From Pseudomonadota bacterium (GTDB taxonomy: Bacteria; Pseudomonadota; Gammaproteobacteria; Burkholderiales; Burkholderiaceae_C): a DNA stretch of 56,873 nucleotides. How positions within the stretch are numbered: the stretch's first letter is position 1; each line of letters starts with the position of its first letter. Below are positions 18,468 to 39,927 of this stretch, one piece after another. A program made the position numbers and the translations under genes. The notes beneath the pieces are model-generated. The model was not told the origin of the DNA, searched no databases, and saw only the letters and a program-made list of their open reading frames with translations. Location of the stretch: the NCBI GenBank assembly GCA_020161215.1, contig JAIUOM010000010.1:1-56873 (forward strand), written 5' to 3'.

Positions 18468-18838
18468 GCACCCCCGACATTCCCAAGGACGCCGTGCTGG
18501 TCGAACGCCGTGACGGCGTGATCCAGCTCACCCTGAATGCCCCGGCGAACCGCAACTCGTTGCAGTCGCCCGGCGTTTACGAAGGCTTGATGGCCGGCCT
18601 GGACGAGTTCGAGCGCGATCCGGCGCTGCGCGTGGCCATCCTGACGGGGGCCGGCGGTGCCTTCTGCTCGGGCGGCGACCTGCGTCAGCTGTCGGAAGGC
18701 GGTGAAGACAGCGCCCGCGCCGCGATGACGCGCAACGCCTGGCTGTACCGCCGCATCGCCCTGGCCGACAAGCTGATCGTGGCGGCAGTCGATGGCCCGG
18801 CCTATGGCGCCGGCCTGAGGGTCGGCCGTGATTCCTGA
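18464..18838 (+). pseudogene. Enoyl-CoA hydratase, 5' half, interrupted by transposon
   Basis: Residues 1-118 of a crotonase-family protein, including AILTGAGGAFCSGGDLRQL (oxyanion region) and VAAVDGPAYGAGL. Host sequence ends at 18816. The last codons (RVGRDS and TGA) are read from the transposon's left inverted repeat. The missing half is at 39923-40369. Joining 18464-18811 to 39923-40369 restores one frame of 264 residues across GPAYGAGLGLAAACD, the expected length. The fragment lacks the C-terminal active-site region and should be inactive. Confidence 0.93.
18812..18816 (+). repeat. Target-site duplication, left copy
   Basis: GGCCT immediately precedes the left inverted repeat and is repeated at 39923-39927 after the right one. 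Five bases is the duplication length of Tn3-family transposition. Confidence 0.9.
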
Positions 18839-18854
18839 AAAATCCGCAGAAACG
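18817..18854 (+). repeat. Left terminal inverted repeat of the transposon
   Basis: 38 bp matching the reverse complement of 39885-39922 at 36 positions. Mismatches are at repeat positions 22 (A/C) and 37 (C/A). The inner block ATCCGCAGAAA resembles the ends of other Tn3-family elements. Confidence 0.92.
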
Positions 18855-18876
18855 ACCCTAAGTCGTTGTCACGCTT

Positions 18877-21837
18877 CTAGAATTTGATCTTATAGTCGAT
18901 AGGATCGATTGCCCTAGACAGATCCAGCGTGTAATCGCCGTAGCGGTTGATATGCGTCGTCCGGTATGGCGATAGCGCTTTCAGCACCGGCTCGCCCACT
19001 TGGTAGCCCTGAACCTGCAGCTCCTTGAGCTTGCGTGACATCCACTGCACGTTGTGAAGTATCACCATGTTGGCCACCAGCTGGCTGTACTTGATGACTT
19101 TGCGCTGCTCGTGCCGGACGTTCTCGGCAATGATCCCCTCCCCGCCGAAGAACAGCCACTTCACGAAGTTGTTGAACTCCTCACTCTTGTTGGTAGCGGC
19201 ATGTATCGAACGGCGCAACTCCACGTCGTTGATGTAGTTAAGCAGGAACATCGTACGGATCACCCGGCCGAGTTCCCTGAAGGCGAAGTAGAGCTTGTTC
19301 TTGCGGCTGAAGGTGCCCAGGCGACGCAGGATCATCGACGGGGTAATCTTGCCGAGCTTTATCGAAACCGCCACGCGCAGCATGTCCCGGTAGTGCACGG
19401 CCAGCAAGTCCCAGTCGATGGTGCCGCGAAACAGGCACTGGATGTGCGTGTACGGGACGCCCGGCTCGGCCTTGAAAAAAACCAGTTCCTTGATGTTGCG
19501 GATGCGAGGCATTAGCTTGATGCCCAGCAAGTGGGCCAAACCGAACACCGGGGCGCTCTGTGCTTGCGTGTCGCCGTGCAGGGTGTCGGGCTGAATGTCT
19601 GACTCGTTCTTGACAAGGCCGTCGAGGATGTAGACCGCCTCGTACACGCCGCAAGGGATGAAGTTGCCGAACAGCGCGATATACATGTCCGAAACATGGT
19701 AGTAGCCGATGCCGCCGTAGCCGCCATAGCGCAGGTGGTACTCGGACATCAGGTTCTGCTCGTACACATTCCACTTGGTGCCGTCGGCCGAGGCGCTCTT
19801 GCCGGTGCCCCAATACTGCGGCAGCGAGAAGCGGTTGTAGGCATTGACCACTTTAAAAATCGCCTTGTCCAGCCGCTCCTCTGTCACATGATGCAGGTTG
19901 AGCCAGGCCACCTGCTTGCGGGAGAGCCCCTTCACCGATAGGGCCGTTTGCGTCGGCCCGAGATTGCAGCCATAGCAGAACAAGGTGGTGAGGAAGCGTT
20001 TGCGCGGGTCGTCGACCTTGCTCTCGAAACCGGAGAGCGGCCCAAAGAGCTTGTGCAGATCAAGCCAGCGCTCGGTTTCCGTCAGCACATCCAGGATGCT
20101 GGTGGTGGCCATCGAGTTCGTGATGGCCTGATCGATCTCGGGCAGGCCTTCCGGTGGCGGCGCCCGGTCGGTGCGCCGGATCAGCAGGCCAGTCTCTGTG
20201 ATGGCCGCATGCTCATTGTCCGGGAAGCGGTCATCCACCTTTTGCGACACGTCCAGCAATTGCTGCTTGAGCAACGCAACCAAGGCATCACCGTCGGCCG
20301 GCAGACCCACCATCGCGCTGTAGTCGCCCACCTCGGCTTCGAACTGCTCCCAGCTGACCAGGTGATCGCGGTAGTCGTCGAACTGGTCGCTATTCTGCAC
20401 ATAAAGGTCACCGGACTTCAGTTCCTCCATCACATGCGAGAACACGCACAGTTCCAAGTACTTTCGGTGCACCAGACCCGAGGAGGCATCGCTGCCCTCG
20501 ATCAGCGCACGCCACTTCTTGTCGGTCAGCCAATCCAGGTCGACGACGCCGAAGCCGGTATCGGCGCGCACATGCTCCTTGTGGCTGGAGCGGAACTGGG
20601 TGATCCAGGAAATGGCGCGCAACAGGCTTTCGTCGGGCGACGAGGACTTCAGCAGCATCGCGTCCAGGCACTGGAACAGCAGGGCGCGCTTGCTGCGGTA
20701 GGGCTGCAGCATGAACGGGTAGTAATTGTTCCCGGCGAAGGCGATGTGCTCGTCGCAGCGCTCAATCCAGGTGGTTGGGTCATCGCCCAGCACACCGCGC
20801 ATCTTCTCGATCCGTTCGGGGTCGCTTCCATCGTCATCGAACGCGGTCAACACCTCGCGGAACTGGGCGATTAAGGCCTCGCCTTGCTCGACGTGCTCCA
20901 GCTGATATTCCTTCAGCCGCTCGCGCGCGACGTTGTGCATATTGCGGACTGAGCGGATGAAGATCTCAGCGATGTCGTCCACCGCCTTCTGCAACTGGGC
21001 GTGAATCAACAGGACGGCCAGCGCATAGCGTTTGATGGCCTTTAGGGCCATCATCTCGCGCACGTTCAAGGCCCGGGCTTCGAGCACGAACTGAGTGCGC
21101 TTGGACACGGGAACATCCTCAGGCTGGGGCAGGCCGTCGGCCAGCTTTCGCACCGCCTCGATGTGCGTCAGAAAGCTCGCCACCTCCCGCACATTGGGCT
21201 GCTTGGGTTCGCGCTTGAGCTGCTCCCATTGACTGCGGCCGGCGCGGGTGGTGAACAGACGGTCGATCTGTCCAAGCTGTTTGTCATTTAGAGCGGACGC
21301 GATCCGGCGCTGAATCTCATCATTGACTTTGGTCCTGACCCGGGACGCGGCGCGGGACAAGGTGACGAAGCCAGGTAGCTCATAGCGATGATGGAGCAAC
21401 TCCTCCAGCAGCACGTTGATGATGTCCGGTAACTCCTGCTTGGTCTGCGCCGCCTTGACGGCTTGCGCCTCCAGCCAGACATGCCCTTCAACCCCCAGAA
21501 CACGCAGCCCCACGTATTCGCGCAACAGGCGCTGATGGATCGACTTGCTGCCGGACTCGTCATAGGTCTTCAGCGCATCGGAAGAGAAGACCGGAATGCG
21601 CATCCGCTTGCAGATGTGCCGGACGATCACCTCCGGCACATCGACCATCATGGTGAAGTAGCCCAGACGCTGCAGCACCTTGAGTTGGATGGCGATAAGG
21701 GCCTGAGTGGTCACGCGCCGGTAGGCGTCGGCGATGAAGCGCCGCTCCTGCAAAGTTGGCGTGAACAGCGCGAGAAGGTCCTTCTCGGCAAGGTCGGTAC
21801 GCAACTGCGGGTAGGCCGTTTCGTTGATGCTGCTCAT
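18877..21837 (-). CDS. tnpA: Tn3-family transposase
   Basis: A 986-residue DDE transposase, full length for the family (about 960-1010). The N-terminal region (DUF4158-like, residues about 5-170) includes FYTMMVDVPEVI-like sequence around YFTMMVDVPEVIVRHICKRM. The catalytic acidic residues are visible: D685 in SADGTK, D756 in HGDTQAQ and E886/E887 in NKSEEFNNFVKWLFF. It reads toward the left inverted repeat, with the stop 23 bp inside it. No frameshift or internal stop is seen. It cuts both element ends and, by replicative transposition, produces cointegrates to be resolved by the recombinase at the other end. Confidence 0.95.
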   Translation of the reverse strand: MSSINETAYPQLRTDLAEKDLLALFTPTLQERRFIADAYRRVTTQALIAIQLKVLQRLGYFTMMVDVPEVIVRHICKRMRIPVFSSDALKTYDESGSKSIHQRLLREYVGLRVLGVEGHVWLEAQAVKAAQTKQELPDIINVLLEELLHHRYELPGFVTLSRAASRVRTKVNDEIQRRIASALNDKQLGQIDRLFTTRAGRSQWEQLKREPKQPNVREVASFLTHIEAVRKLADGLPQPEDVPVSKRTQFVLEARALNVREMMALKAIKRYALAVLLIHAQLQKAVDDIAEIFIRSVRNMHNVARERLKEYQLEHVEQGEALIAQFREVLTAFDDDGSDPERIEKMRGVLGDDPTTWIERCDEHIAFAGNNYYPFMLQPYRSKRALLFQCLDAMLLKSSSPDESLLRAISWITQFRSSHKEHVRADTGFGVVDLDWLTDKKWRALIEGSDASSGLVHRKYLELCVFSHVMEELKSGDLYVQNSDQFDDYRDHLVSWEQFEAEVGDYSAMVGLPADGDALVALLKQQLLDVSQKVDDRFPDNEHAAITETGLLIRRTDRAPPPEGLPEIDQAITNSMATTSILDVLTETERWLDLHKLFGPLSGFESKVDDPRKRFLTTLFCYGCNLGPTQTALSVKGLSRKQVAWLNLHHVTEERLDKAIFKVVNAYNRFSLPQYWGTGKSASADGTKWNVYEQNLMSEYHLRYGGYGGIGYYHVSDMYIALFGNFIPCGVYEAVYILDGLVKNESDIQPDTLHGDTQAQSAPVFGLAHLLGIKLMPRIRNIKELVFFKAEPGVPYTHIQCLFRGTIDWDLLAVHYRDMLRVAVSIKLGKITPSMILRRLGTFSRKNKLYFAFRELGRVIRTMFLLNYINDVELRRSIHAATNKSEEFNNFVKWLFFGGEGIIAENVRHEQRKVIKYSQLVANMVILHNVQWMSRKLKELQVQGYQVGEPVLKALSPYRTTHINRYGDYTLDLSRAIDPIDYKIKF

Positions 21838-21906
21838 CGGGCCAGATCCTTGATAGGGTCGGCTTCAAGCCGAATTCCAGTTGGATCGTGGCCCCAGGAC
21901 TGCAGC

Positions 21907-22494
21907 GGTGTGGGGCAGGTGGTTGATGCCGCCATCGTCGATGGCAGCGCCAACCTGATGAATCTGCTGTTGTCGGTGCATGCCGCCGGACAGCAACCCT
22001 TCGAGCGTGGCAGTGGCTTGCTCGATGGGCCGGCCTGGGTCGGCAGCTACGCCTGCGCCGATGGCCACTTCATCAGCATCAGCCCGCTCGAGCCCCAGTT
22101 CAATGCCCTGCTGTTCAGCAAACTCGGGCTGGGTGACGACCCCGAGTTCAAACGCGCCTACGAGCCACGGCTCTATGCCCACTTGCGCGAGCGGTTGACT
22201 GCGCTGTTCGCCAGCCAACCGCGTCTTCACTGGATCAACCTGCTCGAAGGTACCGACGCCTGCTTCGCGCCGGTACTGACACCGGCCGAGGCGATGGAGC
22301 ATCCGCACATGGCCGCCCGAGGTGTCTACACCCGGCAAGACGGTGTGCTGCAAGCCGCCCCGGCGCCGCGCTTCTCGGCGACGCCGGCCGGCGTGCCCGG
22401 TGCCGTGCCGCGGCGCGGTGAGCACGGTGTCGACATCTTGCGCTCGGCGGGCTTGAGCGAGGCAGAAATTGCGCAATTGCTGGCTGGCGATTGA
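21907..22494 (+). pseudogene. CoA-transferase (CaiB/AMACR-like), C-terminal fragment
   Basis: About 195 residues starting GVGQVVDAAIVDGSANLM, the midpoint of alpha-methylacyl-CoA racemase-type family III proteins, and running to a natural-looking end (GLSEAEIAQLLAGD). Conserved C-terminal pieces are WVGSYACADGHFISISPLEPQF and GTDACFAPVLTPAEAMEHPHM. The N-terminal half with the catalytic Asp region is absent. The junction lies about 70 bp outside the tnpA start codon. This is probably a scar left when tnpA and the cargo were joined. It converges with the AtuA gene. Confidence 0.85.
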
Positions 22495-22509
22495 CCCAGG
22501 CCGACTGCT

Positions 22510-24375
22510 CTATCGGTCTTGTTGGGCTGCCCACCAACGGGCGGACACCGGGACCGGCATTGTCAGCACAATTTGCGCCATCCCTTTGCCCAAGGCGTCG
22601 TTGCGCAGGGAGGCCATTCCGCCGCCATCAAGTGCCTGTTCACAGACAAAGTTCAGCGCATGGATGCCGGGTACGTCATAGCGCACAACACGGCCTTTGA
22701 CCAGGTGAGCCAACCATTGTGCAAGGTGCTCTTCGGTCAACCGCGCGCGCAGCAGCGGCAGCCACTCTGGGCGGCGCGCGATGATGCCGATGTTGGAGGT
22801 GTTTCCCTTGTCGCCACTGCGGGCCCAGGCCAATTGCAGCAACGGAACTTCGATGTCCGCGGGCTCTGTGGCTGTATCCAGATGGGGCGCCGATACAGCG
22901 GACGAATTTGCGGGTGCCGCAATGATGGGCGCGGCGATGGACGCCGGATTCGCGCTCGGTGGTGGCAGATCCACATGGATGATCTGCCCATCCAGTTCGA
23001 CAACAGGATGCAACCGTTGCTTGTCCAGTAAAAAGGCAAACTGCTTGATGCATGGCGATGCACTGGGACGCCCTTCGGCTCCCGTGGTACCTGGTGACCA
23101 GCTGGTACCTGCAGCGGCGATCTCTTTGGAAAATAGCTCGAGCGCAGCACGTACCGGGTGCATCACGGCCACGCGCAAAACCACCTCGCGCGCGTCCAGC
23201 GTGCGTGCCTGTGGACCGAAGTTTCCGGCTTCGCTGCCCAGCACTTCAATATGGGTGCGGCTGTAGTCGCCAAGGCCGTGCGACGCGAACAGCTCGCGCG
23301 TGCGCGCCAAGATCGCTTCACCGGTACGGCGCGCCTTGCGCACGGCATCCGTGCCGACAAAGGTCAGCTGGGCGTTGCAGCGGAAACCGTCGATATAGGT
23401 GGACGAGACCTTGTACGTCGTGCTGGGCGCCAGGCCCCGTGCGCCGCGCACTGCCACGCGGTTCTCGCCCTCCTGCTCCAGTTGGACCTGCGTGAAGTCG
23501 CAAATCACATCCGGCAAAAGGTAGCGCGCGGGATCGCCAATCTCATAAAGAATCTGCTCGCTGATGACGGCGGTGTTGACCAATCCGCCAGTCCCAGCCG
23601 GTTTGGTTGCCACAAAGCTTCCGTCAGCGTGGCACTCCAGGATGGGGTAACCGATGTGCGGCCAGTCCGGTACAGATTCCCAGTCGGTATGCAGGCCGCC
23701 GGTGGCTTGGCACCCGCATTCAATGATGTGGCCAGCCAGACTGCCTTGGGCCAGCAAGTCATGGTCAGAAGGGGACCAGGCAAACGCGTGCATCAGCGCG
23801 CCGAGTGTCACGGCGCTGTCAACGCAACGGCCGGTGATGACAATCTGCGCACCTTCGTCCAGCGCTCGCTTGACCGGCAACGCGCCCAGATAGGCGTTGG
23901 CCGTCAGGACATTGGCGGGCAGGGTGGCGTCCGCCGCGCAGGCATCCAGGCTGCTCACGCCCTCGGTGCGCAATTGCGGTAGCAACGGCGTCACGTCGTC
24001 GCCCACCACCACGGCAATTCGGACCGACACGCCTTGCTCGGCCGCCAGCTCTCGGATGGCTTGAGCACAGGCCTGTGGATTGACGCCGCCAGCATTGCTG
24101 ATGACGCGAAGGCCCTGGGCCGCAACGTCTTTCAGAATGCTCTTCATGGTGACGGTCACGAAATCGGTGGCATAGCCGAGTTCGGGTTTCTTGGCGCGCG
24201 CCGCGGCAAGAATCGACATGGTGAGTTCGGCCAGGTAGTCAAACACCAAATAGTCGAGCTGACCGTGCTTGACCAACTGCGGCGCGCCTACGCTGCTGTC
24301 GCCCCAAAAGCCCGAGGCACCGCCAATTCGCACCACTTTTCTTTTCGCCTTCGCGGCTGCATCCGACACGATCAT
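22510..24375 (-). CDS. AtuA-family acyclic terpene utilization protein (DUF1446)
   Basis: A 621-residue homologue of AtuA, which is required for citronellol/geraniol use in Pseudomonas but has no defined reaction. The N-terminal domain (to about 450) shows VRIGGASGFWGDS, GQLDYLVFDYLAELTMSIL, NAGGVNPQACAQAI and VITGRCVDSAVTLG. The C-terminal domain (about 510-615) has LAWARSGDKGNTSNIGI and YDVPGIHALNFVCEQAL, the AtuA-like ferredoxin-fold part often fused or encoded separately. It is the last gene of the cargo operon and overlaps the preceding hydratase gene by ATGA. Its presence beside a biotin carboxylase is the main pointer to a terpenoid-like substrate. Confidence 0.88.
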   Translation of the reverse strand: MIVSDAAAKAKRKVVRIGGASGFWGDSSVGAPQLVKHGQLDYLVFDYLAELTMSILAAARAKKPELGYATDFVTVTMKSILKDVAAQGLRVISNAGGVNPQACAQAIRELAAEQGVSVRIAVVVGDDVTPLLPQLRTEGVSSLDACAADATLPANVLTANAYLGALPVKRALDEGAQIVITGRCVDSAVTLGALMHAFAWSPSDHDLLAQGSLAGHIIECGCQATGGLHTDWESVPDWPHIGYPILECHADGSFVATKPAGTGGLVNTAVISEQILYEIGDPARYLLPDVICDFTQVQLEQEGENRVAVRGARGLAPSTTYKVSSTYIDGFRCNAQLTFVGTDAVRKARRTGEAILARTRELFASHGLGDYSRTHIEVLGSEAGNFGPQARTLDAREVVLRVAVMHPVRAALELFSKEIAAAGTSWSPGTTGAEGRPSASPCIKQFAFLLDKQRLHPVVELDGQIIHVDLPPPSANPASIAAPIIAAPANSSAVSAPHLDTATEPADIEVPLLQLAWARSGDKGNTSNIGIIARRPEWLPLLRARLTEEHLAQWLAHLVKGRVVRYDVPGIHALNFVCEQALDGGGMASLRNDALGKGMAQIVLTMPVPVSARWWAAQQDR

Positions 24376-25175
24376 GGCGCCGTACCTCCCAAGTTGTTTG
24401 CCCAGCGGGGTTTGCGCTTTTCCTGAAATGCCTTCTGACCCTCCCGTGCATCGTCGGTCAGCGTGAACAGTGCGATCTGGCTTTCGGTAAACGACATGCT
24501 TTCTTCAAATGGCATTGCCTCAATTTTTTTCATCGTGTACAGGCCGCGCCGGATGGCTTCAGGTGATTTGTCGAGCAACCGCTCGAGCAGCCACTGCAGC
24601 TTGGTATCGACGTCGTCGTCGACGTAGTTCACCAGGCCGAGAGCCAAGGCTTGAGCGGCGGTGAAGGGCTCGCCAGTGATGCACATTTCGGCCAGCTGAC
24701 GGCGCGGGACCAAGTGCTGCAGGACGCTCAGTACTTGCGCCGGAAACACGCCCACCTTGACCTCGGGGAGGCCGAAAACGGCATGGCTGCTGGCAACCGC
24801 CAGGTCGCACATCGCCAGCAGGCCCATGCCTCCAGCCATGCAGGCGCCGTTGATGCGGGCCACCAGTGGGATGTTGCTGGCCTTTGCTCGCCGCAGCAGG
24901 AGGGCCATGGGGCCATACGGCTCGGAATAGTCGGTGACGAAAGCCTGGGCCGACTGCAGATCGGCTCCCGCACAAAATGCTTTGTCCCCTGCGCCTGAAA
25001 TGACGATGGCGCGAATGGCACGATTCGCCTGCGCCGCGTCAATGGCTTGCGCCATGCTCGCGAGCACGCCGTGGCTGACGGCGTTGCGCCGCTGTTCTCG
25101 GTTGATCGTCAACCAGAGCACCGGGCCGCGCTGGTCTACCAGCAGTTCAGGGGAATGGGGTGTAGAGGGTGTCAT
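24372..25175 (-). CDS. Enoyl-CoA hydratase, glutaconyl-CoA-hydratase-like
   Basis: A 267-residue crotonase-family protein. The oxyanion motif is SGAGDKAFCAGADLQS and the second active-site region is ACMAGGMGLLAMCDLAVASSHAVFGLPEVKVGVFP. It lacks the first catalytic Glu of short-chain enoyl-CoA hydratase (GGMGLL instead of GGGCEL). It keeps the Glu of LPEVKVG, a pattern seen in methylglutaconyl- and isohexenylglutaconyl-CoA hydratases (LiuC/AtuE). This fits hydration of the carboxylase product. The ATG at 25175 is chosen over an upstream start because it overlaps the preceding stop by ATGA. Confidence 0.85.
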   Translation of the reverse strand: MTPSTPHSPELLVDQRGPVLWLTINREQRRNAVSHGVLASMAQAIDAAQANRAIRAIVISGAGDKAFCAGADLQSAQAFVTDYSEPYGPMALLLRRAKASNIPLVARINGACMAGGMGLLAMCDLAVASSHAVFGLPEVKVGVFPAQVLSVLQHLVPRRQLAEMCITGEPFTAAQALALGLVNYVDDDVDTKLQWLLERLLDKSPEAIRRGLYTMKKIEAMPFEESMSFTESQIALFTLTDDAREGQKAFQEKRKPRWANNLGGTAP

Positions 25176-26206
25176 GTTTGCGCCAGTGAATGAGTCGATG
25201 CGGGCGAGCCTTGGGGATTCAGGCCCCATTGCGAGCCAATGGCCGTGCTGGCGCGGTACGCGTCTGCATACTCCGAGCGAAGCTGCTCAATGAGTTCCCG
25301 CGTGGCGGAGATGCCCTTGATCGCACCGATTCCCTGCCCGGCACCCCAGATCGTCTTCCACCTCAAGGCCGCATCGGTGTCGCTCGTTGCGGCAAGCGAA
25401 ACGGAGCCCACCTCTCTGGCCGGTAGCCGATCGGGATCCAGACCGGATGCCACCAACGAAGGACGGAGGAAATTGCCGTGCACGCCGGTGAAGTGATTCG
25501 TATAAATGATGTCCTCTGCGCCGCAATCAACCAGCATCTGCTTGTACTGTTGCGCTGCGTTGGCCTCGGGCGTCGCGATGAAGGCGCTGCCCATGTAGAC
25601 CAGATCGGCGCCCATCACCTGAGCGGCAAGAATCGCCCTTCCATTGGCAATCGAGCCGGCCAGAACCAACGGTCCGGCGAACCAGGCGCGAATTTCCTGC
25701 ACCAGCGCAAATGGCGATGTCGCTCCGCTGTGGCCACCGGCGCCTGAAGCCACGGCGATGACACCATCGGCGCCCTTGGCGATCGCGCTTTTCGCGTGGC
25801 GATTGGTGATCACATCGTGCAGAACGAAGCCGCCATAGGAATGAATCGCGTCATTCAGTTCCGGACGAACCCCCAGGGAGGTGATGACGATCGGGACCTT
25901 GTGTTCCACGCAAATCGCCAGGTCATGGTCGAGCCGTTCGTTGCTTCGATGGGCGACCAGATTCACCGCATACGGTGCGGCCGGCGTGTCGGGGTGCGCT
26001 GCATCGTGTTCGGCCAGAGCGGATCGAATCTTGCTCAACCACTCGCCCAGAAGCTCCTTGGGACGTGCATTGAGCGCGGGGAAGGAGCCCACGATGCCGG
26101 CCTTGCATTGCTCTATGACGAGATCCGGGTTGGAGATGATAAAAAGCGGTGCCCCGATCACGGGCAAACGCATCGATCGATGAAGCAGAGGAGGGCGTGA
26201 CATCAC
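25172..26206 (-). CDS. Nitronate monooxygenase-family flavoprotein, first
   Basis: A 344-residue TIM-barrel FMN protein of the 2-nitropropane dioxygenase/nitronate monooxygenase family. Family marks are MRLPVIGAPLFIISNPDLVIEQCKAGIVG at the N-terminus, VASGAGGHSGATSPFALVQEI (flavin loop) and GADLVYMGSAFIATPEA (phosphate-binding end). Such proteins recur in acyl-CoA degradation clusters, where a role on nitroalkanes is unlikely; some relatives are enoyl reductases or isomerases. It overlaps genes on both sides by 4 bases. True reaction unknown. Confidence 0.85.
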   Translation of the reverse strand: MMSRPPLLHRSMRLPVIGAPLFIISNPDLVIEQCKAGIVGSFPALNARPKELLGEWLSKIRSALAEHDAAHPDTPAAPYAVNLVAHRSNERLDHDLAICVEHKVPIVITSLGVRPELNDAIHSYGGFVLHDVITNRHAKSAIAKGADGVIAVASGAGGHSGATSPFALVQEIRAWFAGPLVLAGSIANGRAILAAQVMGADLVYMGSAFIATPEANAAQQYKQMLVDCGAEDIIYTNHFTGVHGNFLRPSLVASGLDPDRLPAREVGSVSLAATSDTDAALRWKTIWGAGQGIGAIKGISATRELIEQLRSEYADAYRASTAIGSQWGLNPQGSPASTHSLAQT

Positions 26207-26964: not shown

Positions 26965-27007
26965 GGCAGAGTTCGAGTGTTGGCGTTGCGACTGCGATGT
27001 CGCGGAT

Positions 27008-28983
<1,976 letters not shown>

Positions 28984-28987
<4 letters not shown>

Positions 28988-30615: not shown

Positions 30616-30660
30616 GGTGAATCCGGGATGGGGGAACAGGCTTGCAGGTTGGACGGAAAG

Positions 30661-31902: not shown

Positions 31903-31929
31903 AGTGTTGTCTCGCGGTGATATTGATGT

Positions 31930-33030
31930 TCAGTTGCCGCTGAGCCGGGCGTTCATCTGGTCCAGCGCGCCTTGGGTTTCGGATACGAGGCGCTCGACGA
32001 TCTCATCCACCGTCTTCAGTTCGTTGAACCAACCCACACCCTGGCCCGCGCCGGTATAGGAAAGGGCCTCGATGCCATGCTCCTCGACGGCCGCGAGCAA
32101 CTCGCCGGTCAGCACCTGCTGGTAGGGCATGGGCAAGGGTTTGGGTGCCGAAGGCGCTTCCCATTCGTCGGTCCATGCGCTGCGGATCAAACGGGCCGAT
32201 TTGCCACTGTGGCTTTTGGAGATCACCGTGTCCTCTCCACGGGCGGCCAGCACCTGGCGCAGCAAGATCTCGTTGAACGCGTGTTCGCGGCTGGTGAGCC
32301 ATGCCGTGCCCAGCCAGACACCTTGCGCACCCAGCCCAAAGGCCGCCGCGATGTGCCTGCCGTGGCCCACGCCCCCGGCCGCCAGCACCGGCACGTCCCC
32401 GGCCGCTTCCACCACTTGGGGTACCAAGGAATAGGTGCCGATCGGTCCGGTGTGGCCTCCCGCATCGGCACCCTGCGCAACGATCAGGTCGACACCCGCT
32501 GTCTTCGCGGCCACGGCATGTTTTGCCGAACCCACCAGCGAGATGGTGAATTTTCCGCATTGCGCTGCGCGCTGGATGACACTGGCCGGAAGCCCGATGC
32601 CAGCCGCAAAAGCGTCAGCGCTTGAGCCGAGCACAGCGTCAATCTGTTCGGCAAACAATTGCTGCGAGCGGATCTGGCTGGAGAAGAAGGTCGCTTTTGT
32701 GGCGGGAGGTACGTTGTACTTGGTCCGCAACTGCTCAATGAACGCCTTGTTTTCTGCAGGCAGTCCGGCCACGACCGCTGCGCGATCGGTTTCGCTGCCC
32801 ACGCCCGATGGCAACAGGAGGTCAACACCGAATTTCCCCGTGCCGATGCGTTCGCGGATTTCCTTGAGGTGGCTGACGATCTCGTCCGGCATATCGCGCG
32901 TGGCCCCGTAGATCGGAAAGCAGCCTGCGTTGGCCAGCGCGACCGTCACGTCGACGCTGTGAGAGAAACCAAAGATGGGGTAGCGGATGCCCAGTCGACG
33001 GCACAGCGTGGTGTTCAATGGCGTGCTCAT
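31930..33030 (-). CDS. Nitronate monooxygenase-family flavoprotein, second
   Basis: A 366-residue TIM-barrel flavoprotein of the same broad family as the protein at 25172-26206 but clearly divergent. It has RLGIRYPIFGFSHSVDVTVALANAGCFPIYG, IVAQGADAGGHTGPIGTYSLVPQVV (flavin loop), VLAAGGVGHGRHIAAAFGLGAQGVWLGTAWL, and a C-terminal extension with YTGAGQGVGWFNELKTVDEIV. Its start shares one base with the Bug stop (TAATG). The two family members may act at different steps or as an unusual enoyl reductase; no substrate is established. Confidence 0.85.
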   Translation of the reverse strand: MSTPLNTTLCRRLGIRYPIFGFSHSVDVTVALANAGCFPIYGATRDMPDEIVSHLKEIRERIGTGKFGVDLLLPSGVGSETDRAAVVAGLPAENKAFIEQLRTKYNVPPATKATFFSSQIRSQQLFAEQIDAVLGSSADAFAAGIGLPASVIQRAAQCGKFTISLVGSAKHAVAAKTAGVDLIVAQGADAGGHTGPIGTYSLVPQVVEAAGDVPVLAAGGVGHGRHIAAAFGLGAQGVWLGTAWLTSREHAFNEILLRQVLAARGEDTVISKSHSGKSARLIRSAWTDEWEAPSAPKPLPMPYQQVLTGELLAAVEEHGIEALSYTGAGQGVGWFNELKTVDEIVERLVSETQGALDQMNARLSGN

Positions 33031-34004
33031 TAGTTCACCTTGATATTGGCGCGCTTGATCAGCGTCGAATACCTTTCGGTGTCCGACTTGATCAACTGAT
33101 CGACATCGGCCGATGTCATGGGGCGCACGAGTTCTGCGCCGAGCTTGACAAGCTGCTCGCGCACTTCGGGCAATTTCAGGACTTCGTTCATTTCGTTGTT
33201 GATTTGATGAATGATGGCTGCGGGGGTGCCACGTGGTGCCACGAACCCATACCAGGGAATGAGTGCGGCTTCGGCGTAACCCGCCTCGGCGAATGTCGGC
33301 ACGTCGGGAAGTAACGACGAGCGTGAAGCGGAGCCGGAAGCAATGGCCTTGATGCGACCGGACTGAATCTGGGCCAGCGCCACGGTGAGCGGGAGCCCGG
33401 TAATCTGCACATTCCCGTTGATCAGATCGGCCACGATCGGTGGCGCACCTGCATAGGGCACCATCAGGAAATCTGCGCCAGATGCATGTTTCAGTGCCTC
33501 GAGGAGAAATTGACTGGAAGACCCATTCATCGTCCCCGCTGTTATCTCTTTGGGCTTGGCCTTGGCGAGTTCGACGACATCGCGCAGCGTCTTCACGGGC
33601 AGCTTTTCAGTGGCCACAATGATCATTGGCGAGTAGCCGACGACCCCCAAACCGACGAAATCCTTCATGGGATTCCAAGCGGCATCTTTTGATAGCGATG
33701 GGTTGGCGGCAAACGATGGCCCGACCATCAACCAGGTATATCCATCGGGTTCGCTGCGCAGTGCCGCCAGCGTTCCGATGTTGGATGACGCGCCTGGTCG
33801 GGGTTCGACAACGATCGACTGCGACCACCGCTTTGCCATGGCGTTGGTCACGACGCGCGCGAAAAGGTCAACGACACCGCCAGCGGGGTAAGGAACGATG
33901 ACCCGAATCGGCTTCGATGGATAAGCGCTTTGAGATAGTGCGGGACTGGCTATGGCGACGGCCGTCAGCAAGACGGCGAAGAACCGGGTGGTCAGGTGTC
34001 TCAT
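33030..34004 (-). CDS. Bug-type tricarboxylate transporter binding protein (transposon-borne)
   Basis: A 324-residue periplasmic binding protein. A signal peptide (MRHLTTRFFAVLLTAVAIASPALSQ) precedes YPSKPIRVIVPYPAGGVVDLFARVV, the Bug hallmark. PDVPTFAEAGYAEAALIPWYGFVAP is the usual later motif. It is related in fold, but not closely in sequence, to the host operon's Bug protein at 14019. It presumably captures the acid that the cargo operon degrades. No TctAB membrane components are on the element, so uptake would need host permease proteins. Confidence 0.9.
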   Translation of the reverse strand: MRHLTTRFFAVLLTAVAIASPALSQSAYPSKPIRVIVPYPAGGVVDLFARVVTNAMAKRWSQSIVVEPRPGASSNIGTLAALRSEPDGYTWLMVGPSFAANPSLSKDAAWNPMKDFVGLGVVGYSPMIIVATEKLPVKTLRDVVELAKAKPKEITAGTMNGSSSQFLLEALKHASGADFLMVPYAGAPPIVADLINGNVQITGLPLTVALAQIQSGRIKAIASGSASRSSLLPDVPTFAEAGYAEAALIPWYGFVAPRGTPAAIIHQINNEMNEVLKLPEVREQLVKLGAELVRPMTSADVDQLIKSDTERYSTLIKRANIKVN

Positions 34005-34163
34005 GGATATCTTTCTAGGTGTGGTTTCGGGTAGGCGGTGATCTCATGCGGCAATCGATGGCGCGTGGGAATCGACAATTCAGGCGCGCGCATGCGCCAT
34101 GTGCGATGTGTGGATAGGGATTGCTTGTTTTTCCAGTTGGGCTTGTGCTTGGAAAACACCGGA

Positions 34164-35360
34164 TCACACGACCGATTTCTCGCGCAGAGTCTGTAGTTGG
34201 GCTTCGGATAAACCCATTTGCCGGGTATAAAAATCCTGGTTGTATTCGCCCAGAGTGCCGGCGGTCGACCGGACCGCGCCCGGATTGCTCACGAAGCGAG
34301 GCACCACGTTTTGCATGCGCACCGACCCGAAGTCCGCGTCTGGCACAGAGACGATGGCTTCTCGCGCCACCATCTGGGGATCGTTGACGATCTGGTCGAT
34401 GGAATAGATCGGCGCAATTGCTCCGCCTTCGCGCTCGAACGCTTCGAGGATTTCGTCCAGGGTGTGCTCACCCATCCAGCGGGAGAACACCTCATTCAAT
34501 TCGGCCGAGTAACCCATTCGCAAACTATTGGTCATGAAACGCGGATCCTCTGGCAGGTCAGGGCGACCAATGGAGCGGGCGTTGGCGACAAAAATCGCGT
34601 TGGTGCTGCCCGACAGCGAGACATAGCGTCCGTCTCGACTTGAATACACCGCAGAGGGGGCGGAGTACTGGTTGGCATTGCCCGAACGCTCGCGCACTTC
34701 TCCCAACTGGTCGTGCTCGATCGGCAGGAAATCGAGCAAGCGAAGCACGGCCTCCGTCATCGACAGGTCGATCTCCTCGCCAGGCGCATCGGGCTCCATG
34801 ACACGCCGGCACAAGGCGGCCAGCACGCCGATGGTGCCGAACAGGCCACCGATCGCATCCCCCATCGGGTACCCGGTATGCATCGGTGCGCCTTCCGGCT
34901 CACCGGTGATATAGGTGAGTCCGCCCATGGCTTCAAACAACCGGGCAAAGCCGGCCCGATCACGGTAGGGGCCCGTCTGGCCAAAACCTGTGGCACGCAA
35001 GATCACCAGACGCGGCTGCAGTTCCCAGAGGACTTCGCGCGTCAAACCCCAGCGGTCCAGCGTACCGGGCCGGAAGTTCTCCACCAGCACGTCGAAGCCC
35101 TTGATCATTTGCTTGAACAGAGCCAGGCCTTCAGGCAGTCGCAAGTCGAGCGTAATGAACTTCTTGTTGCGGTTGATGGCCTTCCACCACAACGATTTGC
35201 CGTCCTTGAAAGGAGGGAAGTCTCGCGCACCGTCGCCGTGGCCAGGAAGCTCCATCTTGATGACGTCAGCGCCATAGTCGGCGAGCAAGGTCGCGCAGGA
35301 GGGCGCCGCGATGATCGTCGCGATGTCGAGAACCTTCAATCCGCTCAGCGGTCCGCTCAT
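34164..35360 (-). CDS. CaiB/BaiF family III CoA-transferase (transposon-borne)
   Basis: A 398-residue CoA-transferase. GLKVLDIATIIAAPSCATLLADYGADVIKME is the N-terminal family signature, NRNKKFITLDLRLPEG follows, and the catalytic Asp is in YPMGDAIGGLFG. The first gene of the cargo operon, it would activate the incoming acid by moving CoA from a donor such as succinyl-CoA. No acyl-CoA synthetase is present on the element, so this is the likely entry step. 159 bp separate it from the Bug gene. Confidence 0.9.
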   Translation of the reverse strand: MSGPLSGLKVLDIATIIAAPSCATLLADYGADVIKMELPGHGDGARDFPPFKDGKSLWWKAINRNKKFITLDLRLPEGLALFKQMIKGFDVLVENFRPGTLDRWGLTREVLWELQPRLVILRATGFGQTGPYRDRAGFARLFEAMGGLTYITGEPEGAPMHTGYPMGDAIGGLFGTIGVLAALCRRVMEPDAPGEEIDLSMTEAVLRLLDFLPIEHDQLGEVRERSGNANQYSAPSAVYSSRDGRYVSLSGSTNAIFVANARSIGRPDLPEDPRFMTNSLRMGYSAELNEVFSRWMGEHTLDEILEAFEREGGAIAPIYSIDQIVNDPQMVAREAIVSVPDADFGSVRMQNVVPRFVSNPGAVRSTAGTLGEYNQDFYTRQMGLSEAQLQTLREKSVV

Positions 35361-35853: not shown

Positions 35854-36666
35854 TTATGGCTTCCACATGGTGCGAATGCTGGCTGCCAGTGCGACGGCGC
35901 GTGGCGCGACATCATTCTCTAGCTGCCCGTAACCAAGTCGGAACGCTGGAATGCCGCAATTCATCGCCAGCGCTGTCCCATCGGGCAAGGTCAGCAAGGG
36001 CACGCCCACCGCGTGCACTCTGGGATCGAAGTCGCCGTAAGACAGGCAGTAGCCCTGACGCGCGCAATCCTGCACGGCCTCGGCCGCCTTGGCATGGTGG
36101 CGCTCCCACAGGTCTGGCATGTCGGTGCGGGTTTGCTCGAGAACGCGCATTCGTGTTGCTTCATCGAGCTGCGCCAGCAATGCCCGACCGATCGCCGTCT
36201 GGATCAAAGGCGCATTGTTGCCCACGTCGGGCGACCGTGGGTGGGGGTCGGTGCTTCGAGCCGTTTCAACGTAAATCAGGCTGAGACGATCCAGGGCACC
36301 CAGCGAGACCGCACCGCGGATTTCGCGTGCAACCTCCAGCATCAACGGCCGCGCGACCAGCCGGATCGTCAAGCTGCGCAGTACAGGGTAGGCCAAGGCG
36401 AGCAAACGCACGCCAGGGCGAAACTTGCCTTCGTCGTTGCGGGTCAGAAAGCCCAGTTCAATGAGGGTTGAACTCAAGCGGGAAACGGTCGGCTTCGATA
36501 GACCTGTGCGCCGCGAAAGTTCGGCATTGCCAAGCCAGGTATCTTCAGGACCGAAGGCCTCGATGAGAGAGAGTCCGCGCGCCAACGTGGTTGCAAACCA
36601 TTCGCCGTGTTCGCTCTCATCTCGGACGGTTTTGGTCGTGGGCGGCTGTATTTCGGGTTTGGGCAT
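35854..36666 (-). CDS. IclR-family transcriptional regulator
   Basis: A 270-residue regulator. The helix-turn-helix (about residues 25-85) reads ARGLSLIEAFGPEDTWLGNAELSRRTGLSKPTVSRLSSTLIELGFL. The effector domain (about 100-265) includes AVSLGALDRLSLIYVE, TAIGRALLA and GYCLSYGDFDPRVHAVGVPL. The frame extends to 36924, but the ATG at 36664-36666 gives the normal IclR length. It sits upstream of the cargo operon in the same orientation and probably controls it. Whether it activates or represses cannot be told from sequence. Confidence 0.88.
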   Translation of the reverse strand: MPKPEIQPPTTKTVRDESEHGEWFATTLARGLSLIEAFGPEDTWLGNAELSRRTGLSKPTVSRLSSTLIELGFLTRNDEGKFRPGVRLLALAYPVLRSLTIRLVARPLMLEVAREIRGAVSLGALDRLSLIYVETARSTDPHPRSPDVGNNAPLIQTAIGRALLAQLDEATRMRVLEQTRTDMPDLWERHHAKAAEAVQDCARQGYCLSYGDFDPRVHAVGVPLLTLPDGTALAMNCGIPAFRLGYGQLENDVAPRAVALAASIRTMWKP

Positions 36667-36853
36667 GATTGGAACATTTTCCCATAAACGTTTCGAAACT
36701 CGATGGAGGATGCGGTGAGACGTATTGATGGTCTCCGAGGCTTTGGCACTGGGCACGTCCAGGAGCCGCGCGTGGCCAGGGCAGGCCAGAGTTCCGCCGG
36801 GAACTCGCGCATAGCTCGACGCACTTCTTGACGTAGACGCTGGCGCACGTGGG

Positions 36854-37915
36854 CTATGCAAGCAGCTTGGAGGCGGGGGTGTTGGACAGTCCACCGCGGC
36901 GCTGATATCCAAGCACCACGGCAACGGACTGATGGCCTGTCATCGCCATCGTGTCGGCGATCGAGACGTTCTGTGCAGCCGCTTCGGTGACGAAGCCAGA
37001 CCGCAATGAGTGTGCAGAAAACTTCCCCTCAACCCCCGCCAACAAACACCGCACTTGCACGATGTCGCGCACGGCTGCAGCCGACAGTGGCCCACCCAGG
37101 TGGCCGCCCTTGAGCACGCGGCGGAAGAGGGCGCCCTCGCGGATCCTACTCACCGACAACCAGTCTTCCAGCGCTGCACCCGCAGCACCGAGCACGGGCT
37201 TGTGGTTCTCGGGCCGGTCGACGCCGCTCTGGTTCGTTTTCGAGAAGACCAGCTCGTAAGAAAACTCCCCCGATCCGGTCTTCTTCAGGAACTTCATGTC
37301 CGCCGCGGCCACTTCGGAGCGCCGGCGCCCACCACTGGCCCAGGCAAAGAGGAGGAGGGCGCGATCGCGTTTGCCTTTCAATGTCTCATCGCAGGTGGCC
37401 AGCACAAGCTGCAGCGGATCCTTGGTCAGCGCGTCTTTTTTCTTGGGCAACTCGCCGCGCTTGGCGTAGGCCTTGCGCGTGCGCGAGAGCAGCTCGCGCA
37501 CCTTGGGGTCCTGACACGGGTTTTTCACCTCGCGCATCTGGTGGGCTTTGGAGAGCACCGCCAGGCGGTGCACGAGCGTGTTGTGCGCCATCGGTCCCGC
37601 CTTTCCCTTGTAGCCGGCCTGAACCAGGGCGGTGTCAATCCCGGCCGGGAGCTCGTGCACCAGGCCCTTGGGCGTGCTGCGCTGCGCGTGGTCGACGATG
37701 AACTGCAGCACGCAAGCCGCTGGCAACGGCAGGCTGATCTGCGCCCCGTAACGAATCCCGTACCAGGCGGCCCAATATCGAAGTGCGCTGCGGTAGCTCA
37801 GCTGCGTATTGAGCGATTCACCTTCGCGCAGCAGGTCGGCCACGGCCTGCGCGGTCACATCGCTGAGCTCATGCGGCTGCAGGGCGGGGGTTTTCTGGAG
37901 GATGGGCAGGCGCAT
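36854..37915 (-). CDS. tnpS: Tyrosine recombinase, TnpS-type cointegrate resolvase
   Basis: A 353-residue tyrosine recombinase. A core-binding domain (about 20-150) precedes the catalytic domain with R197-R199 (ASGGRRRSEV), H302 and R305 (HSLRSGF), H328 (TGHQS) and the nucleophile Y337 (LGYQRRGG). Tn4651-type elements use such an enzyme (TnpS) instead of a serine resolvase to resolve cointegrates. It is divergent from the TnpT-like gene with 129 bp between starts, exactly the Tn4651 layout. The symbol is given by homology and context; no alignment was run. Confidence 0.85.
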   Translation of the reverse strand: MRLPILQKTPALQPHELSDVTAQAVADLLREGESLNTQLSYRSALRYWAAWYGIRYGAQISLPLPAACVLQFIVDHAQRSTPKGLVHELPAGIDTALVQAGYKGKAGPMAHNTLVHRLAVLSKAHQMREVKNPCQDPKVRELLSRTRKAYAKRGELPKKKDALTKDPLQLVLATCDETLKGKRDRALLLFAWASGGRRRSEVAAADMKFLKKTGSGEFSYELVFSKTNQSGVDRPENHKPVLGAAGAALEDWLSVSRIREGALFRRVLKGGHLGGPLSAAAVRDIVQVRCLLAGVEGKFSAHSLRSGFVTEAAAQNVSIADTMAMTGHQSVAVVLGYQRRGGLSNTPASKLLA

Positions 37916-38044
37916 GTTCAGGGCAGGGTGACGAATGGAGTTTTATCGCACATACTATGTATGATTTGATACGAAACGGGTCGATAAATCACGATAAGTA
38001 TCCCTTATCGTTGGTAATTTACAGTGTGAAGCAGGGCGGTGCAA
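37916..38044. promoter_or_regulatory. Candidate resolution (res/rst) site and divergent promoters
   Basis: The AT-rich 129 bp between the divergent tnpS and tnpT contains two dyads. One is CATAC-TAT-GTATG (37951-37963). The other is ACGATAAG-TATCC-CTTATCGT (37991-38011), with perfect 8-bp arms and a 5-bp spacer. The second has the geometry of a tyrosine recombinase core site. In Tn4651 the resolution site also lies between tnpS and tnpT. Confidence 0.6.
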
Positions 38045-39022
38045 ATGAAAAGTTCGAGAGTCTCCCGAGGCGTTCAGGTCGATGAGGTCTGGGGCGCGGC
38101 CGACGCCGTGCTCGCCCAAGGCGAGCGGCCCACGATTGAGCGCGTGCGCGCGCACCTCGGACGAGGATCGCCGAACACCGTGGCGCCCATGCTCGATGCC
38201 TGGTACGCCTCGTTGGCCAAACGACTGGGGGGTGGCGATGAGGGCGTCGGGGAGCAGGGCGCCCTGCCAGCACCGGTTCTGCGGGCGGCCAAGGCGCTGT
38301 GGGGTCGCGCCCAGCAGCACGCCCAGGAGCAGGCGGCGCAATCGGTACAGGTCGATCGAGACGCACTGGAAAGGTTAGTAGAGCGGCTCGCGGCCGAGCG
38401 AGTCACCCTCGATCAAGAACAGCAACGGCTGAACGAGCGCTCGGAAGCACTGGGCGCCGCGCTTCAGGCCAAGGACCACCAGCTTGCGGATCTGCTTCGC
38501 CAGGTTACCGACCTGCAAAAAGGGCTGCTGGGCCGGGACGCTGAAATTGAATCCGTGCGCGCCCAGAATGCTGCGGCAACGCAAGCGTTGCAAGCCGAGC
38601 GTGGTCGCCTCAATGCGCTGAACGAGGAGCACCGGCAGGAGCGTGAGCGCCTGGAACAACGAGCTTCAGCTCAAGAAAGACGGCTGTTGGAGGACGTCGA
38701 TAGGGCGCGACAGGAACTCAAACGCGTCACCCTCTTGCTCGCAGATGAAAACAAAAAGGCGGCCAAGGCGTTGGGAGATTCGCACGAGCTGGCCCAGTCT
38801 CTTCGGGTGCAGGTCAGCGCACTGAGCGCTGAGAAAGCCGGCTTGGCCCGTGAGATCCTTTCTGCACGCGAGGACTTGCAAACAGCCCAGTCGCAACAGG
38901 CGCAGTTCCGAAAAAACACGACGGAGCTGTTGGTCGAGCTCAAGACACGTCTTCCCAAGGGAGACGCCAACGCTGGGACACCCGCGAAGCGGTCCAAAAC
39001 GAAGAACGTGCTCAAACGCTAG
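38045..39022 (+). CDS. tnpT: TnpT-type coiled-coil DNA-binding protein (KfrA_N-like)
   Basis: A 325-residue protein. The N-terminal DNA-binding domain (about 8-80, VDEVWGAADAVLAQGERPTIERVRAHLGRGSPNTVAPML) is of KfrA_N type. A long heptad-rich coiled coil (about 110-300) follows, rich in Gln, Glu, Leu and Ala (for example LEERLEQRASAQERRLLEDV-like runs around 195-225). A basic tail (AKRSKTKNVLKR) closes it. In Tn4651, TnpT is required with TnpS for resolution. The ATG at 38045 follows AGGGCGG; a GTG at 38039 is possible. Confidence 0.83.
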   Translation: MKSSRVSRGVQVDEVWGAADAVLAQGERPTIERVRAHLGRGSPNTVAPMLDAWYASLAKRLGGGDEGVGEQGALPAPVLRAAKALWGRAQQHAQEQAAQSVQVDRDALERLVERLAAERVTLDQEQQRLNERSEALGAALQAKDHQLADLLRQVTDLQKGLLGRDAEIESVRAQNAAATQALQAERGRLNALNEEHRQERERLEQRASAQERRLLEDVDRARQELKRVTLLLADENKKAAKALGDSHELAQSLRVQVSALSAEKAGLAREILSAREDLQTAQSQQAQFRKNTTELLVELKTRLPKGDANAGTPAKRSKTKNVLKR

Positions 39023-39120
39023 TAGCGCAACAGCACGATACTTCGCGCCGGATGGTTGGCGGTCAACCAATCCGCAGAACACACAAAATAAAGTTCTATC
39101 CCTGTTAGTTGCCAGGACGG

Positions 39121-39414
39121 TTATGCGGCAGCCGGAACTTTGGCGGTCAGCTCGATGCCCAAGGCTTTCATGACCGCCAGAGTCGTCTTTAGGGTCGGGT
39201 TGCCGTTCTCGCTGAAAGAGCGGTAAAGCTGCTCGCGGGAAAGCCCGGTTTGCCCAGCAATCTGGGCCATTCCCTTGGCACGCGCGACGACCCCCAGCGC
39301 GTGCGCGATATAGCCGACGTCATTCGTCTGGAACGCTTCCGCCATGAAGATCGCAATGGCTTCGTCCGAAGTCAGATCCTCGGCGGGATCATAGGTAGTC
39401 AGTTTTTCAGCCAT
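39121..39414 (-). CDS. Antitoxin, HTH type (HigA-like addiction module antidote)
   Basis: A 97-residue protein matching the putative addiction module antidote family. TYDPAEDLTSDEAIAIFMAEAFQTNDVGYIAHALGVVARAKGMAQIAGQTGLSREQLYRSF contains the Cro/C1-type helix-turn-helix (about 50-85). It is the second gene of a toxin-first pair, starting 1 bp after the toxin stop, as in higBA-type systems. It should neutralise the toxin and repress the operon. Toxin-antitoxin pairs are known parts of many Tn3-family elements, usually near the resolution module as here. Confidence 0.88.
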   Translation of the reverse strand: MAEKLTTYDPAEDLTSDEAIAIFMAEAFQTNDVGYIAHALGVVARAKGMAQIAGQTGLSREQLYRSFSENGNPTLKTTLAVMKALGIELTAKVPAAA

Positions 39415-39415
39415 T

Positions 39416-39712
39416 TCATTCGCTCCATGCTTCAGCCAGGCGCTTTGCAGCCTTGATGTCCTTCGCTTGCGTGCTTTTGTCACCGCCGCACAGCAAGACG
39501 ATGATCGTGCTTCCTCTCTTCTGGAAGTAGATGCGGTATCCAGGGCCATGGTGAATACGCAATTCGCTGACTCCCTGCCCCACGGGCTCCACATCGCCCG
39601 CAAGACCAAAGGCGAGGCGGTCCAGTCGGGACGCCACCAAGATGCGCGCTCGTTCGTCCTTGAGCCGCGTTCGCCATTTCCTGAATGTCTCTGTTTGTTT
39701 TAACTCGATCAT
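39416..39712 (-). CDS. Toxin, RelE/HigB-like addiction module killer protein
   Basis: A 98-residue RelE/ParE-superfamily toxin. ETFRKWRTRLKDERARILVASRLDRLAFG, then GVSELRIHHGPGYRIYFQKRGSTIIVLLCGGDKSTQAKDIKAAKRLAEAW, is typical of the killer-protein family, which cleaves mRNA on the ribosome in related cases. It is the first gene of the pair and lies between tnpT and the right end. It probably stabilises the element after insertion. Confidence 0.9.
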   Translation of the reverse strand: MIELKQTETFRKWRTRLKDERARILVASRLDRLAFGLAGDVEPVGQGVSELRIHHGPGYRIYFQKRGSTIIVLLCGGDKSTQAKDIKAAKRLAEAWSE

Positions 39713-39725
39713 TGATGATCGAACT

Positions 39726-39741
39726 GTAGTTTATGGACTAC
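39726..39741. promoter_or_regulatory. Operator dyad upstream of the toxin-antitoxin operon
   Basis: GTAGT-TTATGG-ACTAC is a perfect 5-bp inverted repeat starting 14 bp before the toxin start codon, within the likely promoter. This position suits autorepression by the antitoxin or toxin-antitoxin complex. Confidence 0.55.
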
Positions 39742-39884
39742 TGCCTGTCAACCAAGCCTTGGCTGCGCATCAACCTACGCTGTACAGCGTATGGAATGCT
39801 TTGAGCACACAGTCCAAGACGCGTTGGATAGTGGCTACGTTCATAAAGTCGGAAAAAATCTTAGTTAAATCAAATACTTAACTG

Positions 39885-39922
39885 CTTTTCTGCGGATTTT
39901 GCAGGAATCACGGCCGACCCTC
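39885..39922 (-). repeat. Right terminal inverted repeat of the transposon
   Basis: Reverse complement of the left repeat except at two of 38 positions. It is followed immediately by the second GGCCT target duplication. Confidence 0.92.
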
Positions 39923-39927
39923 GGCCT
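39923..39927 (+). repeat. Target-site duplication, right copy
   Basis: GGCCT, identical to 18812-18816, directly abutting the right inverted repeat. Confidence 0.9.

Follow-up and report, generated by a model that had tools for sequence, protein, structure and literature searches.

A probably complete, recently mobile Tn3-family transposon with an acyl-CoA carboxylase cargo interrupts an enoyl-CoA hydratase gene and recurs unchanged at a second site

What is the 21-kb stretch that splits an enoyl-CoA hydratase gene in a relative of Curvibacter, and has it moved recently? The gene lies on contig JAIUOM010000010.1 of assembly GCA_020161215.1, analyzed here over its full 56,873 bp and referred to as the window. 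We read the insertion, with a probability of about 0.9, as a Tn3-family transposon of TnpS/TnpT (tyrosine-recombinase) type that is complete and has moved recently. The reading is carried by the ends of the element, the target duplications beside them, and an identical copy at an unrelated site.

The transposon proper spans 21,106 bp (18817-39922); the wider span of 18812-39927 takes in both copies of a 5-bp direct repeat, GGCCT. Its inverted ends, beginning GAGGGTCGGCCGTGATTCCTG... on the left and matched in reverse complement on the right, are 38 bp long with exactly two mismatches, and a uniform-base estimate gives ~1e-10 chance pairs of such ends per window. Ends and duplications were read directly in the sequence, as the initial annotation had them, and correspond to the terminal repeats of ~38 bp and the 5-bp, sometimes 6-bp, duplications of the Tn3 family; the excerpted text of a study of Tn3-derived elements likewise gives duplications of 5 or 6 bp (PMC4133298). 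The boundaries and the gene around them are as follows.

18464..18816, + strand: host enoyl-CoA hydratase gene, 5' part, ending with one GGCCT
18812..18816: target duplication GGCCT, left copy
18817..18854, + strand: 38-bp inverted repeat beside tnpA
39885..39922, - strand: 38-bp inverted repeat, other end, two mismatches
39923..39927: target duplication GGCCT, right copy
39928..40369, + strand: host enoyl-CoA hydratase gene, 3' part

Leaving out the element and one GGCCT in silico restored a single open frame holding a 264-residue crotonase-type hydratase, which bears out the frame restoration first proposed. Acyl-CoA dehydrogenase and CoA-transferase genes neighbor the hydratase in the window. 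Among 149 genomes, the host's own included, hydratase matches at E ≤ 1e-60 occurred in four, namely the host, with its gene in two halves, and three genomes with an uninterrupted orthologue (G011 and G004, each 73% identical; G140, 65%). The stretches examined from G011 and G004, two same-genus genomes, have the order dehydrogenase-dehydrogenase-hydratase-CoA transferase as in the window, with the hydratase unsplit, and so supply the empty site that the initial annotation had suggested seeking in related genomes. Hydratase function in the host has almost certainly been abolished by the insertion, which would thus have gained the host one carboxylase/hydratase pathway at the cost of one resident hydratase. 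The GC content of the element is 62.2%, against 68.0 and 67.0% in the host flanks. Within the host genome the element is single copy: the left end and TnpA were each found once, the search with the end also picking up its counterpart at the other terminus and a 30-base match. We rejected a composite element with insertion sequence (IS) copies at its borders, as no repeat longer than 36 bases was found apart from the ends.

The partial RpoB of the host is 92% identical to that of Curvibacter, with which it groups in an 11-row tree, and its GuaA is 93% identical to that of the same Curvibacter genome; on these two markers the host is a Burkholderiales relative of Curvibacter. Elsewhere in the window, 52102-52393 belongs to a dispersed repeat family with ~40 further matches over the host genome (~57-230 bases, 78-99% identical).

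The strongest evidence for movement came from a search of genome contigs with TnpA, which returned 26 loci, one of them at 100% identity in the metagenome-assembled genome (MAG) KLAP82, labeled "Pseudomonadota bacterium" and without mention in the literature searched. The KLAP82 contig holds the whole element at 1011-22116 with 0 differences in 21,106 bases, independently confirming its size and ends. Its flanks are unrelated to those of the window and it is bracketed on both sides by TATTCA, a 6-bp duplication, where the Hydrogenophaga plasmid NZ_CP044976 has TGTTCA once. The left flank (1,010 bp) is 95.2% identical to NZ_CP044976 210120-211125, and the right flank (1,164 bp) is 83.8% identical to the same plasmid from 211122 and ~90.5% to Delftia plasmids. 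On this empty plasmid the two flanks are adjacent, overlapping by 4 aligned bases, or by 6 with the right flank's two unaligned first bases. The insertion falls inside a DUF2958 gene, whose unsplit plasmid relatives are up to 98% identical.

The two contigs show that the element, unchanged base for base, has been at two unrelated sites, each with its own duplication. Since a letter-for-letter identical copy lies at a different site, the element moved recently, in keeping with the "probably recent" insertion of the initial annotation. The latter had allowed for the same 21 kb turning up elsewhere without these ends, and here the outcome was the opposite, the second copy having exactly these ends; an assembly join at 18816 or 39923, its other reservation, is very unlikely with identical ends in another contig. 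The two exact copies offer a before-and-after view of a large catabolic transposon, with one site known both empty and filled and with another filled site in conjugative-type surroundings.

That context is mobile in its own right. Plasmid records matching the KLAP82 flanks were typed conjugative in 110 of 111 cases for the left flank and 58 of 58 for the right, with at least 80% query cover in 6 per search. The empty site on NZ_CP044976 is followed by genes for RepA, ParA, ParB, an S26 peptidase, and a relaxase, and the excerpted description of the Tn4371-family core gives the same RepA-ParA-ParB-TraF-relaxase order for these integrative and conjugative elements (ICEs) (PMC2789088). The KLAP82 contig itself shows ~1 kb per side, so this gene order is known from NZ_CP044976 and not from KLAP82. 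Among 59 genomes (KLAP82 and relatives), DUF2958 relatives were found in KLAP82 and one other only, the latter at 47%; hence, the site lies outside the core genome of the lineage. KLAP82 RpoB is 72% identical to that of Kangiella and 65% to that of the window host, falling on the gammaproteobacterial side of the 11-row tree. At E ≤ 1e-100, a GuaA match turned up in 11 of 13 genomes but not in KLAP82, which means that the MAG is incomplete or distant and that GuaA gives no placement. With correct binning of the contig, two classes would share the same element; misbinning is common for plasmid-like contigs.

The machinery of transposition and resolution lies at the two ends of the element.

18877..21837, - strand: tnpA, Tn3-family transposase, 986 aa, DDE residues present
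36854..37915, - strand: tnpS-like tyrosine recombinase, 353 aa
~37951-37963: smaller palindrome CATACTATGTATG, found by eye
37991..38011: possible resolution-site core ACGATAAG-TATCC-CTTATCGT, a palindrome
38039..39022, + strand: tnpT-like partner, 327 aa, with KfrA_N domain and coiled coil
39121..39609, - strand: antitoxin, HI1420 family, second gene of the pair; domain at residues 69-156, true start probably internal
39416..39712, - strand: toxin, RelE/ParE superfamily, HI1419/Gp49 family

TnpA scored 681.9 bits against NF033527 (cut-off 500) and 488.5 bits against PF01526. Its D, D, and E align with D679, D751, and E881 of Tn4430 (positions counted in the printed alignment), which we take to be the catalytic triad of that transposase, and these results uphold the earlier family assignment. 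The genes for TnpA, the recombinase, and its partner have uninterrupted frames of usual length, as had been claimed. TnpA is 35% identical to one pWW0 transposase and 27% to the other, both recorded just as "Tn3 family transposase" and presumably those of Tn4651 and Tn4653, respectively. A 17-row tree, in which long branches were flagged and not all Tn3 subgroups were represented, placed TnpA with Burkholderiales relatives away from TnAs1, TnShfr1, and Tn4653, on a branch distinct from that of Tn4651. In the set of 149 genomes, matches to TnpA at E ≤ 1e-100 were confined to the host itself, G042 of the same family (81, 81, and 52%), and G127 of the same order (51%), so TnpA is rare among close kin. 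A tblastn search of plasmids gave two matches at 95-99% among the best 5,000 records.

The divergent PF00589 recombinase and KfrA_N protein form the gene pair expected of TnpS/TnpT-type elements. The palindrome between them at 37991-38011 has 8-bp arms, of which 7-bp arms are retained in a related Hydrogenophaga element. Between tnpT and the end, adjoining the end repeat, lies the HI1419/HI1420-type toxin-antitoxin pair, whose DNA has only 60-80% relatives among plasmids (82 records).

What the element carries is a ~15-kb cargo of ten genes in one direction and an IclR-type regulator, with a gene fragment at its junction with the backbone.

21901..22494, + strand: headless CoA-transferase family III fragment, C-terminal part, ~198 aa, from the cargo/backbone junction
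22510..24375, - strand: AtuA-like protein, PF07287 and PF23544
24372..25229, - strand: enoyl-CoA hydratase/isomerase, paired with the AtuA-like gene as in relatives' chromosomes
25172..26206, - strand: nitronate-monooxygenase-family flavoprotein
26203..26964, - strand: second enoyl-CoA hydratase/isomerase
27008..28987, - strand: biotin carboxylase and biotin carrier, acyl-CoA carboxylase alpha, AtuF-like
28984..30615, - strand: carboxyltransferase beta, AtuC-like, geranyl-CoA-carboxylase type
30661..31902, - strand: acyl-CoA dehydrogenase
31930..33030, - strand: nitronate-monooxygenase-family flavoprotein
33030..34004, - strand: TctC/Bug-type periplasmic solute-binding protein
34164..35360, - strand: CoA-transferase family III, intact
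35854..36666, - strand: IclR-family regulator, start inferred (the mechanical open reading frame, ORF, reaches 36924)

Between the regulator and the CoA transferase, at 35700-35850, a short frame resembles by eye the C-terminal end of an IS630-type transposase (an ORF without a Pfam match).

Parts of this cargo recur in chromosomes. Matches to AtuA at E ≤ 1e-150 occurred in 90 of 399 family genomes and to the beta subunit at E ≤ 1e-190 in 134 (own genome included in both), and outside the element the host genome encodes another AtuA (67%) and another beta subunit (65%). The nearest beta subunits, at 79-86%, are in five genomes of one genus (g137). One of these (G472) has nitronate monooxygenase-dehydrogenase-beta-alpha in cargo order at 72-86% protein identity, and another (G336) keeps the relative order of the cargo at 63-82%, with the dehydrogenase at the contig end followed by beta, alpha, and AtuA, whereas the other three (G529, G410, and G233) have the beta-alpha pair alone with good identity. 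TnpA, TnpS, and TnpT had no match in any of the seven stretches searched, those of g137 included. Since cargo parts occur in chromosomal-type clusters free of transposon genes, the cargo looks like a captured chromosomal cluster; no donor of the whole cargo was found. The AtuA-hydratase pair as a donor by itself was rejected: of the 89 other genomes that matched AtuA, eight were examined, and all eight stretches have the pair and no other cargo gene at E ≤ 1e-15.

Several observations weigh against the interpretation given so far, in which a complete TnpS/TnpT-type element has recently moved a terpenoid-type pathway. In a 12-protein database, TnpS matched pWW0 weakly (23% over 348 columns, E 4.5e-13), as did TnpT (42% over 43 columns, E 1.6e-4). 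The KLAP82 contig looks plasmid- or ICE-borne, making its binning, and hence the host, uncertain. The related Hydrogenophaga element has no target duplication and its tnpA is broken by ~1.66 kb. The other such observations concern the cargo substrate and the region upstream of tnpA, and each has its own rival explanation.

As cargo substrate we favor, with some reserve, a terpenoid-type acid, judging by protein similarity. A role in leucine or isovalerate degradation (Liu-type, via methylcrotonyl-CoA), or in that of some other branched acyl-CoA, in place of acyclic terpenoid acids, is quite possible and the best-surviving alternative. It would account for carboxylase alpha, whose best solved match is the alpha subunit of 3-methylcrotonyl-CoA carboxylase (MCC), and for the generic character of several acyl-CoA genes; the cargo acyl-CoA dehydrogenase is closest to the putative acyl-CoA dehydrogenase 4hr3 and then to ACAD11. 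The beta subunit points the other way, with geranyl-CoA carboxylase (GCC) as its best solved relative (615 bits, vs. 487 for MCC). In alignments to 5ikl_B and 3u9r_B it has Gly at the MCC Phe191 position and lacks the 3-residue insertion of MCC, and these are the two features that distinguish GCC from MCC in the excerpted text of PMC4673880. The AtuA-like gene also argues against a leucine pathway, and AtuC-, D-, E-, and F-like genes accompany it. The full Atu set, which we take to be atuABCDEFGH with AtuB and AtuG as short-chain dehydrogenases, is not present, since no AtuB, AtuG, or AtuH homologs, and no lyase, were recognized among the annotated cargo genes, and the lack of the three homologs too would suit the leucine alternative. 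No Tn3 transposon with GCC-type cargo appears among the literature matches listed (the best 8-12 of 29-56, in part). A link between a terpenoid-type acyl-CoA carboxylase pathway and Tn3 transposition, as the window would provide, is likewise absent among them.

Whether the element can still move depends on the junction at 21901. Four related loci (L004, L007, L008, and L017) share, by eye, a leader upstream of tnpA that is cut at this position in the window; the leaders of L008 and L017 look identical. One promoter type was sought at 21700-22700, and no sigma-70-like promoter was found there (0.1 expected by chance), nor was a terminator (0.9 expected by chance). Both the cut leader and the missing promoter-like site would fit a transposon that moved in the past, then lost the tnpA control region through cargo capture, and is fixed today. 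We judge this improbable, as the exact copy at the other site has the same cut leader and the element therefore transposed in this form. An element that moved, with the cut-leader junction in both copies, must express tnpA by some means, and our guess is read-through from the cargo operon, which points at tnpA. The initial description of the element as "potentially active" is well founded in that it has transposed at least once in its present form; with the leader cut, activity today is possible rather than certain. That a self-contained terpenoid-acid degradation transposon is now spreading between beta- and gammaproteobacteria on Tn4371-type conjugative elements, with tnpA driven by operon read-through and transposition thus stimulated by growth on the cargo substrate, we consider unlikely.

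An assembly artefact, with the 21 kb misjoined into the hydratase gene or into both contigs, can be set aside as extremely improbable: the host genome is in 250 contigs, 87 identical bases of contig overlap suggest a short-read assembly, and KLAP82 is a MAG, yet target duplications sit exactly at the inverted repeats in both contigs, which a misjoin would not make, and both empty sites are known from other records, which it would not explain.

For the recently mobile transposon that we favor, family resemblance suggests how it would work. Transposition by TnpA would be replicative, linking the 38-bp ends to a new target and leaving a duplication of 5 bp (window) or 6 bp (KLAP82). The TnpS-like recombinase with its TnpT-like partner would then resolve the cointegrate at the palindrome that separates the two genes. 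Retention may be helped by the toxin-antitoxin pair. The cargo, which brings an IclR regulator and a solute-binding protein of its own, would be a captured operon. In it the CoA transferase would activate a branched, terpenoid-like acid as CoA ester, which the acyl-CoA dehydrogenase most likely oxidizes before a GCC-type enzyme carboxylates, and then a hydratase hydrates, the terpenoid-like acyl-CoA. Since the second copy sits in a conjugative plasmid- or ICE-like region, such elements are the likely vehicle between species.

How the element compares with its relatives completes the answer. Megablast of the element gave no match among phages and 118 records among plasmids, none covering 80% of the element; the 38-bp end (≤9 mismatches) was also present in 12 of 27 relative loci scanned. 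Four elements were inspected with both ends and flanks, namely those of the window, KLAP82, Hydrogenophaga, and the MAG UWPOB_BURK1. Duplications flank three of them (window, 5 bp; KLAP82, 6 bp; UWPOB_BURK1, 5 bp), and the Hydrogenophaga element has none (CATAC vs. GCCAT). A Variovorax element (G154) stops at a contig end and was left out of this comparison.

The Hydrogenophaga element, on plasmid pPBL-H3_B2-1 (NZ_CP044976, 129934-150414), has an identical left inverted repeat and a right one with the same two changes, and at the DNA level shares tnpA at 90-94% and the tnpS-tnpT region at 84%. It differs in its cargo of ring-hydroxylating dioxygenase, aldolase/acetaldehyde dehydrogenase, and TRAP transporter genes, and it lacks the toxin-antitoxin pair, with 23 bases where the window has ~720 (39038-39756). 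At the split in its tnpA (L004, 21608-23265) the matched parts share 5 bases, the pattern expected of an insertion that duplicated 5 bp, and no gene is listed there. A second copy of the recombinase region, 77% similar, lies away from the transposon at NZ_CP044976 293953-295015.

The UWPOB_BURK1 element (G150:C138:20548-46341; L046-L047; 25.8 kb) shares TnpA at 92%, the same end type, and a 5-bp duplication, ATGTT. By Pfam family its tyrosine recombinase and KfrA_N protein agree with the window pair, but they have no BLASTP match to it at E ≤ 1e-3. Its cargo differs as well, including P-type ATPase and RND pump genes of metal-efflux type and TIR and ThsB-TIR genes, the last two of which may serve anti-phage defense. 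Set side by side, these elements show that cargo, resolution module, and toxin-antitoxin pair have been exchanged separately around one transposase, as far as gene content and identity tell. In Curvibacter delicatus NBRC 14919 (L009 and L012; G152:C41 and C42), both contigs carry TnpA relatives at 81%, and C41 has the end repeat at both contig ends, so the element is probably present there in several copies.

Among described systems, TnHdN1 likewise combines a TnpS/TnpT module with a toxin-antitoxin pair. In the excerpted part of a 2020 survey of 190 Tn3 transposons, 39 had such pairs and TnHdN1 was the sole TnpS/TnpT element among them; its pair is PIN_3/RHH_6 between tnpS and tnpA, whereas that of the window is Gp49/HI1420-type between tnpT and the end repeat (PMC7157771). 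The toluene transposon Tn4651 of pWW0 has the same layout as the window element, with the transposase at one end, a divergent tyrosine recombinase and KfrA-like/TnpT protein at the other with palindromes between them, and catabolic cargo between transposase and resolution module. The pWW0 genes are named generically in the record, and their assignment to Tn4651 is our assumption. Identity to them is low throughout (TnpA 35%, TnpS 23%, and a 43-residue match for TnpT), TnpA lies on a separate branch, the cargo is different, and pWW0 has a tnpC gene beside tnpA, whereas none was recognized in the window element. Catabolic TnpS/TnpT-type Tn3 transposons are a known kind of system, and the cargo type, the placement of the toxin-antitoxin pair, and the modular relatives mark this element as a further member of it and not as the start of a class of its own. 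On present comparisons, what distinguishes the element is its cargo, together with the direct evidence in the sequence that it moved recently.

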